DNA of 64,000 bases. Origin: Candidatus Krumholzibacteriota bacterium (GTDB lineage: Bacteria; Krumholzibacteriota; Krumholzibacteriia; Krumholzibacteriales; WJIX01). The stretch covers positions 780,642 to 844,641 of the forward strand of contig JAXHNR010000002.1 of assembly GCA_034520215.1 (NCBI GenBank), in the 5' to 3' direction. A program made the translations under genes and the position numbers. Below are positions 22,894 through 59,145 of the stretch, piece by piece. A model generated the notes under the pieces. It was not told where the DNA came from. It saw nothing but the letters and a program-made list of their open reading frames with translations, and searched no databases. Every line of letters begins with the position of its first letter. Positions within the stretch are counted from its first letter, which is position 1.

Positions 22894-22906
22894 AATGGTT
22901 ATAGCA
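22894..22906 (+). repeat. Left copy of 13-bp direct repeat bordering mobile repeat A
   Basis: AATGGTTATAGCA, identical to 23212-23224. The two copies border a 303-bp element whose ends resemble each other in inverted orientation. This is what a target-site duplication would look like. Confidence 0.65.
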
Positions 22907-23209
22907 GGACATTCCCCGGAAATTGGTAAGTATTTTGCTAACAATTCGAGATACAATCAGTTATCAGGATTGGTAAGTGGAATAGGGCTTTCATTGCTGA
23001 TGAGTGCGGCTGATTGATATTTTCAAAATCCTGGTCAATTCCCCCGGCGAGGGAATTGTACGCTCTGCACCTCGGGCTCGCTCTTTCTGCCCCTTCGGGC
23101 CAGAAATCCTTGCCCGCTCGCCCTCCGGAGGGTTTTGAAAATATCAATCAGCCGCATACTGTTACAAATCATCGACTACCTTATAGGTTATAAAAATTGG
23201 GGAAACTCC
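22907..23209 (-). mobile_element. MITE-like element, copy A (303 bp)
   Basis: Non-coding element in the dppC-NlpC/P60 gap. Ends GGACATTCCCC (22907-22917) and GGGGAAACTCC (23199-23209) are imperfect inverted repeats (9 of 11). Inside is a 150-bp core bounded by a perfect 23-bp inverted repeat (23006-23028 and 23133-23155), with a 99-bp arm to the left and a 54-bp arm to the right. The right arm matches the short arm of copy B over nearly its whole length (ATACTGTTACAAATC, ACCTTATAGGTTATAAAAAT). The core is inverted relative to the arms when compared with copies B and C. No transposase; it would need one supplied elsewhere. The strand label is arbitrary. Confidence 0.75.
23006..23155. other. 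Structured palindromic core of copy A
   Basis: Outer stem: 23006-23028 with 23133-23155, beginning GCGGCTGATTGATATT, 23 bp perfect. Inner stems: CAATTCCC (23036-23043) with GGGAATTG (23051-23058), its loop, read on the complement, UCGCCGG; a TTTCTG...CAGAAA stem capped by CCCCTTCGGG (23085-23107); and a GCCCGAGG/CCTC+GGGC helix read on the complement. The same stems and loops recur in copies B and C with changed pairs, so the fold rather than the sequence seems to be kept. It may act as RNA or as single-stranded DNA. Confidence 0.6.
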
Positions 23210-23211
23210 AA

Positions 23212-23224
23212 AATGGTTATAGCA
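23212..23224 (+). repeat. Right copy of 13-bp direct repeat bordering mobile repeat A
   Basis: AATGGTTATAGCA, the partner of 22894-22906, two bases after the right end of copy A. Confidence 0.65.
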
Positions 23225-23321
23225 GTTGACAAACCGGAGCATTCGAGGTTATTTATTGATTTTACAGGAGATATTCCGCCGGGCATGGGGATTATCGAAA
23301 AAGAGAGGGAGCTGTCAGGCG

Positions 23322-37214: not shown

Positions 37215-37314
37215 GCCGGATAGAAACTAAATATCAATTCCACTTATCAATATGGGTAATTACTTAATAGTTATGCCGTTACTAAAATGTTGCCCTGATT
37301 TTTTGGGAAAGTCC
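37215..37314 (-). repeat. Partial copy D of the mobile repeat (long arm only)
   Basis: About 88% identical on the opposite strand to 58819-58918, the long arm of copy C. It starts at the core-stem end (GCCGGATAG) and finishes at a terminus-like GGGAAAGTCC. The structured core and short arm are missing, so this is a remnant or solo arm. It lies in the comF-fba gap. Confidence 0.7.
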
Positions 37315-37398
37315 TGTAAATATTTTGTTGAAGATAGAAGGCGGTTATGTTTCAATACTCTATATGACCTGCCGCCCGTATTATTCGGCCGGATTCTG

Positions 37399-42976: not shown

Positions 42977-43792
42977 TTAATTGTGTTTATTGTCGTCAGA
43001 GTACTGTTCGAGGATTCTTTTTTCAGTTTCTGTTAGATTTCCGTAACCCTTTCTTGATATTTTATCCAGTATGGAATCTATCTTTTTCCTGCTGTTTCCA
43101 TCAGAAGTCTCAGCGTCATCCTCATTTTTAATTTTTATTTTGATCGGGAATGAATCCAAAAGAGATTTTATTTTTCTCCAGAATATGCTGGTTCTATGAT
43201 CTGAATGTATGTAGATCAATCCGGCCGCCAATCCTCCCAGATGAGCAAAGTGCGCTATTCCGTCCTGACCGCCCATGCCTCTTAAGAATTCCAAAACGGC
43301 TAATATTATTACGAGTGTTCTGGCCCGGATAGGGAATAATCCCAGAATATATATCTGATTGTACGGAAAGAGAACGGCATAGGCCAGAAGAATTCCATAA
43401 GCCGCGGCAGATGCTCCAAGTATTATCGAATGATAGGAGAATATAAAACTGAACAGGGCGCCGCCGAGTCCGCACACAAAGTAATATTTGAGAAATTGCC
43501 TGCTTCCCCACATCCTTTCGAGTTGCGTTCCGAACATCCATATTATCAGCATATTAAAACCGATATGAAGTATACCTCCGTGAATGAACATATATGTGAA
43601 TAATTGCCAGATATATCCCCTGGTGAGTACTTTTTCCGGATGCAGAACCAGCCATTGTTCGAAGTTGGTCTTATAGAGGATGATCTGCAGAAAAAAAATT
43701 ACCACATTAGCCGCTATTATTTTATTCAGGACGTTTTTGCCCAAGAAGTTCTTAATACCGTTTGATGAGCTCCCGCCGTAGAAATCGTTCAT
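42977..43792 (-). CDS. Rhomboid-family intramembrane serine protease (second copy)
   Basis: 271 residues. Rhomboid core with YMFIHGGILHIGFNMLIIWM, catalytic Ser128 in ILGASAAAYG (GASA rather than GASG) and catalytic His184 in IAHFAHLGGLAAG. The C-terminal 70 residues are hydrophilic and cytoplasmic; RKGYGNLTETEKRILEQYS resembles the tail motif of many bacterial rhomboids. Different in architecture from the TPR-fused copy at 26411. GGAG lies before the ATG on the minus strand. Confidence 0.9.
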   Translation of the reverse strand: MNDFYGGSSSNGIKNFLGKNVLNKIIAANVVIFFLQIILYKTNFEQWLVLHPEKVLTRGYIWQLFTYMFIHGGILHIGFNMLIIWMFGTQLERMWGSRQFLKYYFVCGLGGALFSFIFSYHSIILGASAAAYGILLAYAVLFPYNQIYILGLFPIRARTLVIILAVLEFLRGMGGQDGIAHFAHLGGLAAGLIYIHSDHRTSIFWRKIKSLLDSFPIKIKIKNEDDAETSDGNSRKKIDSILDKISRKGYGNLTETEKRILEQYSDDNKHN

Positions 43793-43898
43793 TACTATAC
43801 TCCACTGTTGAATCCTGTTTATAATAACTACTGAAGTTTAAATGAGCAACTTTGATAATACAACATACACGGTTTTTTTCAAGCTTAGAATAATTTTT

Positions 43899-44200
43899 GG
43901 AATTCCCCCAATTTTTATAACCTATAAGGTAGAGGGTGATTTGTAACAGTATGCGGATGATTGATATTTTCAAAATCGTGGTCGATTTCCCCGGCGAGGT
44001 AATCGCCACTCCCGCCTCGGGCTCGCTCTTTCTGCCCCTTCGGGCCAGAAATCCTTGCCCGCTCGCCCTCCGGAGGGTTTTGAAAATATCAATCATCCGC
44101 CTTAAGTAACGTTGACCGACTTATTCCAGCTGGTTATTCTTGTAACTGATACCCATTACATAACTTAGTGGATTTATTGCTAAATTTTTGAGCAAACTCC
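43899..44200 (-). mobile_element. MITE-like element, copy B (302 bp)
   Basis: Termini GGAATTCCCCC (43899-43909) and GAGCAAACTCC (44190-44200) are weak inverted repeats. Short arm 43899-43952, core 43953-44100 bounded by a perfect 23-bp inverted repeat (43953-43975, 44078-44100), long arm 44101-44200. Arm lengths match copy A almost to the base, and the long arms share an ATCAGTTA...TGGAATA segment. The core runs in the same direction on the + strand as in copy A although the arms are reversed. A 13-base target repeat, if present, has decayed. Confidence 0.72.
43953..44100. other. Structured palindromic core of copy B
   Basis: Outer stem begins GCGGATGATTGATATT; compared with copy A one pair has changed on both sides (C-G to A-T). 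The TTTCTG/CAGAAA hairpin region and the CCTCCGGAGGG helix are identical to copy A. The second hairpin has changed to CGATT...AATCG while keeping the TCGCCGG loop (read on the complement). Pair-wise changes point to selection for structure. Confidence 0.6.
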
Positions 44201-44242
44201 CGGAGAAAAATTACTCTTTCAGCAAATATTCATTAATAGAGT

Positions 44243-58790: not shown

Positions 58791-58805
58791 ATTGGAGAAA
58801 CTCCA
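58791..58805. repeat. Extra terminal motif left of copy C
   Basis: ATTGGAGAAACTCCA, identical to 59088-59102 at the right end of copy C, and a small palindrome (TTGGAG-AAA-CTCCAA). Either part of the target duplication or a leftover end of another insertion. Confidence 0.55.
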
Positions 58806-58818
58806 AAATATAAATATT

Positions 58819-59101
58819 GGAGTTCCCTCTGAAAATCCGGGCAATATTTTAGTAACGGCATAACTATCGAGTAATTACCCATAATGATAAGGGAATTTAT
58901 ATTTAGTTTCTATCCGGCTATTGGTATTGCAAAACCCTCTCGGAAGACGAGCGGGCATGGTTTTCCCATTTCCTTTAAGGAAATGGGAAAGAGCGAGTCT
59001 GAGAGCGGGAGACGCTATTTCCTCGCAGGGGAAATAGACGGCGTTTTTGACAATACCAATAGCCGGATATACAAAGAATATGTAAAAATTGGAGAAACTC
59101 C
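58819..59101 (+). mobile_element. MITE-like element, copy C (283 bp)
   Basis: Ends GGAGTTCCCTC (58819-58829) and GAGAAACTCC (59092-59101). Long arm 58819-58910, core 58911-59069 bounded by 19-bp inverted repeats (58911-58929, 59051-59069), short arm to 59101. The core stems have different sequences from copies A and B, but the conserved strings CGAGCGGGCA, GAAAGAGCGAG and CCTCGC-GGGGAAAT occur in the same order. The long arm is repeated at 37215-37314. It lies between the yfcE-like and DUF62 genes. Confidence 0.72.
58911..59069. other. Structured palindromic core of copy C
   Basis: Outer stem starts TATCCGGCTATTGGTATT and is unrelated in sequence to the A/B stem. Second helix CTCTC+AGAC with GTCT+GAGAG (58937-59006 region) replaces CCTC+GGGC with GCCC+GAGG. 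The hairpin is TTTCCCATTTCC / GGAAATGGGAAA instead of TTTCTG / CAGAAA. The last hairpin CTATTTCC / GGAAATAG keeps the TCGCAGG loop. Four separate stems have changed compensatorily. Confidence 0.65.
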
Positions 59102-59115
59102 ACCCAAATATATTT

Positions 59116-59145
59116 TTGACATTACATATTTTTTTCATGTAACAT
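59116..59145 (+). promoter_or_regulatory. Possible promoter upstream of the DUF62 gene
   Basis: TTGACA (59116-59121), 18-base spacer, TAACAT (59140-59145). An inverted repeat TTACAT / ATGTAA (59122-59142) lies between. The rest of the gap to 59355 shows no other feature; leader would be about 200 bases. Confidence 0.3.

Follow-up and report, generated by a model that had tools for sequence, protein, structure and literature searches.

A family of short elements in the genome of an uncultured Krumholzibacteriota bacterium appears to insert at a near-fixed distance upstream of sigma70-type promoters. We interpret its members as MITEs that were mobilized by an IS4-type transposase and that carry a core behaving as a DNA hairpin, and we place the probability of this whole model (mobilization, promoter-upstream targeting, and DNA-hairpin core taken together) at roughly 80%. 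Using a covariance model of the core built from 34 cores, we located at least 86 core-like sites in the 2.6-Mb genome, of which 75 score above 130 bits; core-less or truncated copies exist in addition to these 86. The copies lying in the window (i.e., the whole 64,000-nucleotide stretch of DNA that was analyzed), and their parts, are as follows.

22905..23211, + strand: MITE copy A, with A-type arms, its long (L) end to the left and its short (R) end to the right.
22894..22904, + strand: left target-site duplication (TSD) of copy A, sequence AATGGTTATAG.
23212..23222, + strand: right TSD of copy A.
23006..23155, - strand: folded core of copy A, including a bounding palindrome of ~24 bp (covariance model, 174.8 bits).
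23226..23231, + strand: -35 box TTGACA of the promoter apparently targeted by copy A, 16 bp past the R end.
43897..44202, - strand: MITE copy B, with its R end to the left.
43953..44100, - strand: folded core of copy B (covariance model, 166.7 bits).
43877..43882, - strand: -35 box TTGAAA of the promoter on the R side of copy B.
58817..59103, + strand: MITE copy C, with C-type arms and a C-type core.
58914..59066, + strand: folded core of copy C (covariance model, 156.9 bits).
59116..59121, + strand: -35 box TTGACA of the promoter on the R side of copy C.
37215..37316, - strand: arm-only C-type copy, core-less and truncated; a TTGAAG word is found 13 bp beyond the L end.
58792..58804, - strand: older R-end remnant adjoining copy C.

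Coordinates of copies A, B, and C count two nucleotides outside the GGA...TCC termini. An earlier, sequence-only reading of the window had reported three copies of about 300 bp, and these are present at positions that it gave correctly to within about 2 bp. It had missed the arm-only copy and the R-end remnant, the TSDs, the opposite orientation of the core in copies A and B relative to their arms, and the sigma70-type promoter that lies at a near-fixed distance from the R end of each of the three copies. The R end of copy B faces a gene at 42977-43792 (- strand); a clear TSD was not found at the flanks of this copy.

The elements are 275-311 bp long and non-coding, and nearly all genomic copies keep the common plan of repeats, long arm, core, and short arm that had been proposed from the window alone. 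Written with the short arm to the right, they comprise a left terminus (YWGGAGTTYCC or CAGGACATTCC), a long arm of ~95-101 bp, a palindrome-bounded core of 148-154 bp, a short arm of 54 bp in A-type and 35 bp in C-type copies, and a right terminus (GGGGAAACTCC plus two bases); the terminal repeats are imperfect, 11-12 bp in length, and the outer ends can be written GGAGTTYCC/GGACATTCC...GGGGAAACTCC. TSDs of at least 8 bp flank 43 of 65 copies, with a mode of 9 bp, while flanks paired at random yielded a mean of 0.1 such copies and a maximum of 1; these duplications are anchored best when the element is taken to extend two bases beyond the GGA/TCC termini. At the site orthologous to that of copy A, two congeners lack the element and the two flanking genes are nearly adjacent, with flanks too diverged to define a base-exact empty site. 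Short, non-coding, bounded by TIRs and TSDs, and sharing their ends with an autonomous element that is intact in other genomes and present here as relics, these repeats are MITEs, as the sequence-only reading had suggested. A protein-coding role for the core was considered and dropped, as inspection revealed that copy lengths differ by non-multiples of three.

Some copies depart from the plan. Six left-truncated copies in the same genome (L127, L129, L130, L133, L136, and L138) retain the R arm beside a promoter, and in several of them what is left starts close to, or exactly at, the outer boundary of the core palindrome, as if the base of the core hairpin were a deletion end point. Another small repeat type (L141, L142, and L143), ending in CCCCTTAGAAAAATGGGGAAACTCC or a similar sequence, faces a good promoter at the same distance in two of three cases. 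The host is placed in Candidatus Krumholzibacteriota through its kinship with named relatives. Beyond this genome, the covariance model detected about 15 core sites in one genome from a second genus of the same family, but no match in 56 other genomes, several of them fragmentary; neither the core nor the transposase was found in the viral contigs searched.

The window itself indeed contains no transposase, as had been stated earlier, but relics of one lie elsewhere in the genome. The core-less right ends L132 and L145 close transposase relics: the former relic ends in the R-end sequence of the MITEs, and the R end of the latter is near-identical. A protein search further revealed a broken IS4-like transposase gene split by an IS3-like element (L148; G000:C2:36414-38790), as well as intact relatives of the transposase in three other genomes. 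The intact protein has 421 amino acids, the C-terminus from the relics matches it, and the ends of the intact IS are GGACATTCCCC...GGGGAATGTCC; a TSD was not seen at the two intact IS copies. Further R ends were sought in four genomes (G001, G003, G010, and G016), where full ends occurred only at intact IS copies and the other matches to the R-end pattern look like chance. Because only relics, and no intact transposase, were found in the MITE-rich genome, we infer mobilization in trans from the matching ends and the relics; the MITEs would thus be non-autonomous elements moved by an IS4-superfamily DDE transposase that now survives there only in broken form.

Assignment of the transposase rests on Pfam DDE_Tnp_1 (PF01609), which it matches with 35.7 and 39.5 bits (cut-off 23), and on an alignment that identifies the IS4 signature Y-(2)-R-(3)-E-(6)-K as Y306, R309, E313, and K320. 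The curated IS4/IS701 cut-offs of NCBIfam were not reached (best score 49.7 bits versus 150), and scores this far below every curated cut-off point to a lineage outside the assigned families. Models for Mutator, ISLre2, and ISKra4 gave no match at E<=1; a search for UPF0236 (PF06782) returned nothing in this genome, but nothing in the control genomes either. No relative was found by a sequence search of the PDB, and a structure prediction was set aside (mean pLDDT 39). Among the plasmids and phages searched, only relatives with 27% identity to the transposase appeared. One of these, with a broken frame, is encoded on a gut 'phage' scaffold (L163; MT838322.1), in which TTGACA-17-TATAAT lies ~12 nt outside the left repeat; since no TSD was seen there, this proximity to a promoter is only suggestive.

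The core of ~150 bp folds into a branched structure whose conserved loops are shared across subfamilies and two genera. In a set of 32 non-redundant cores, pairing holds in 92% of pair cells, compared with 34-49% when the pairing is slid, and at least two Watson-Crick types occur at 28 of 40 pairs; the conserved pairing at many loci that the earlier reading had named as support for its claim is therefore present. The loops are nearly invariant, and the loop motif GAGCGGGCA[AT]GG-N-GAAAGAGCGAG, singled out earlier as kept, matches exactly three times in the window and not at all in 100 shuffles of it. Between the two genera, identity amounts to 72-78% in the inner core columns, 64% in the bounding stem, and 56% in the long arm. 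The conservation of the inner loops suggests that the folded core is under selection.

The orientation of the core relative to the arms varies. Cores of A-type and other copies are found 50 times in '+' and 5 times in '-' orientation, and those of C-type copies 8 times in '+' and 19 times in '-'; that of copy A is itself inverted relative to its own arms when compared with most A-type copies. Arm trees indicate at least three changes of orientation in each family, and cores differing by 1 bp were found in opposite orientation. These trees ignore recombination between copies, which does occur, so that some of the apparent flips may be exchanges: hybrid L040 has two R arms and a C-type core, and hybrid L117 joins, inside the core, core halves from two subfamilies. 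Template switching between the arms of an inverted repeat is described as homogenizing those arms and inverting the spacer (PMC8604942). Such a process fits both the inversion of the core and the strand-symmetric character of its pairing, which is evident in the paired columns of 63 good cores, where 27 GU cells stand against 30 AC cells.

What the core does is the least certain step of our model, in which it is most likely a cis-acting hairpin that works either way round, rather than a dedicated trans-acting RNA. A serious competitor, although not the one we favor, is that the fold has no function at all, its stems being matched by template switching and its loops being alike through recent spread and exchange. 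The strand symmetry of the pairing, the homogenizing effect of template switching, and the existence of hybrid and module-swapped cores all agree with such a functionless fold; it sits poorly, however, with loops that are kept between genera whose long arms are only 56% identical, and across subfamilies with different stems.

It seems unlikely to us that the MITE instead carries the core as a gene for a functional non-coding RNA. The branched fold of the core, the conservation of its loops, and the compensatory changes seen between subfamilies and between the two genera are what such a gene would display, but the 63 cores lack the preference for GU over AC that one functional RNA strand would be expected to show, the orientation of the core varies relative to the arms and the promoter, and no promoter was established inside the core. 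Rfam likewise offered no family at its gathering score, and permissive thresholds gave no usable match. With no RNA-strand bias in the pairing, covariation alone does not mean a functional RNA; the conserved fold noted earlier holds as pairing, and the stems are probably kept paired in DNA, by template switching, and not as one RNA strand. The same caution applies more widely: covarying base pairs in a palindromic repeat are not in themselves proof of a functional RNA.

A still less probable alternative holds that the core is a second mobile unit, which moves into hairpins independently of the MITE arms. Two cores in the related genus prompt this suggestion: L093 (G004, 894-1036), which has a different, perfect bounding palindrome and no MITE arms and lies between two convergently transcribed genes that seem to belong to a sugar ABC transporter, and L099, which has no recognizable arms. 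In the MITE-rich genome, however, nearly all cores lie inside arms at the same place, and the few armless exceptions may have lost theirs.

We return to the overall model and to its better-supported component, the position of the elements relative to promoters. Past the 82 right ends examined, TTGA occurs at offsets of 13-17 bp in 50 copies (51 occurrences), but only about 0-1 times at each other offset, placing the R end 13-17 bp upstream of a -35 box. A second signal, TA...T, peaks at offsets 36-38, i.e., ~17 bp beyond the -35 box, and the spacing between -35 and -10 in the TTGA copies peaks at 17-18 bp. When flanks were scored for promoters, 43 of 82 reached at least 9 of 12 on the R side (control mean 1.3, maximum 6), and 52 of 82 did so on either side (control mean 2.3), the controls being 1000 random-window sets from the same flanks. 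Among copies lacking TTGA, a -10 box with at least 5/6 matches is present in 16 of 32, as opposed to 2-5 of 32 in controls, which suggests that the whole promoter, and not the word TTGACA alone, is targeted. The R-side genes are transcribed away from the element in 58 of 82 cases, with a median start at ~100 bp by a rough ORF call.

The same distance recurs in other settings. The outward left flank has a second TTGA peak (17 of 75, in windows at 10-19), 10 of these 17 cases being copies without TTGA on the R side, so that a promoter faces away from the left end in about one-fifth of copies. A promoter at the matching distance also accompanies 9 of 10 copies in the second genus and 13 of the 20 copies that lack a core. 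The two intact IS copies whose R end could be read agree as well, each with a -35 box matching at 6/6. Conversely, TTGA is missing from the 13-17 bp interval at about 40% of R ends, and in ~37% of copies neither side reaches a promoter score of 9, from which it follows that the targeting is either a strong preference or one whose old sites have decayed.

At the level of pattern, targeting is well supported by the sequence comparisons, and the fixed distance together with the L-facing cases argues for it over selection, although selection against insertions elsewhere could contribute to the pattern. The idea that there is no targeting, and that elements survive only where they are harmless or helpful, just upstream of promoters, draws on the copies without a recognizable promoter, on the generally better tolerance of intergenic insertions, and on the slightly higher frequency of TTGA where no clear TSD is seen (27 of 36 copies) than where one is (23 of 46), as gradual purging could give. 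We nevertheless consider it highly improbable: tolerance alone does not produce a peak only a few bp across at a single distance, copies that keep intact TSDs and are probably younger already have TTGA in those 23 of 46 cases, and the same distance is seen both for promoters faced by L ends and for autonomous IS copies from other genomes within the phylum.

Insertion duplicates ~9 bp just upstream of a sigma70-type -35 box, usually with the short (R) end toward the promoter, and the interval from the R end to the -35 box, which holds the duplicated target, corresponds to the UP-element region. In the mechanism that we propose, the transposition complex would recognize the promoter as a unit, possibly in the form of promoter-bound RNA polymerase, and docking there may provide a harmless landing site. 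The palindrome-bounded core would act as a DNA hairpin whose bounding repeats drive its recurrent inversion, and template switching during replication may preserve the match between the arms of each stem. A bolder extension is that a separate IS4-superfamily lineage evolved polymerase-docked integration independently of Mutator-type elements, and that the selected, orientation-independent hairpin of its MITEs acts on neighboring transcription or transposition; this remains a tentative proposal, which we regard as rather doubtful in its entirety. In practical terms, the copies mark promoters in an uncultured phylum, and the family is a rich source of information on small inversions at palindromes.

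The features that appear to be new are promoter-distance targeting with an IS4-like transposase and an invertible palindromic core. Structured bacterial repeats such as BOX/RUP and ERIC are likewise short, intergenic, high in copy number, and foldable; to our knowledge, neither promoter-distance targeting nor an invertible core bounded by palindromes has been described for any of them. The Correia (NEMIS) elements of Neisseria are also high-copy intergenic MITEs with a stem-loop and a location near genes, but they carry promoters of their own, whereas the Krumholzibacteriota MITEs land beside an existing one (PMC10969869; PMC2229807). Inversion of Correia elements is known for the whole element (PMC10969869), while here only the core flips, and we found no earlier description of core inversion within fixed arms in the open-access literature. 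With the IS4 superfamily, the transposase has in common DDE_Tnp_1, the YREK spacing, and duplications of roughly 9-12 bp, but it scores far below the curated cut-offs, and promoter targeting by IS4 members was not reported in the open-access literature that we found.

In that literature, only some Mutator-related transposases are known to insert upstream of bacterial promoters at a constant spacing. TnGBS and ISLre2 (p-MULT 3) and some ISKra4 elements (p-MULT 4) insert a fixed distance upstream of sigmaA promoters, with a predicted -35 box 13-17 bp from the repeat end, duplications of 8-9 bp, and an orientation set by asymmetric end repeats (PMC3942029). The elements described here have the same distance upstream of the -35 box and similar duplications, but most of their copies are MITEs with a folded core, and their transposase matches only DDE_Tnp_1 in Pfam, has the IS4 YREK spacing, and is not Mutator-related. 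They work like p-MULT elements yet fall outside that group, failing on the type of transposase. That a second type of transposase behaves in this way suggests that the two have converged on one cue, perhaps RNA polymerase, and makes the nature of the promoter cue testable by comparison of the two.
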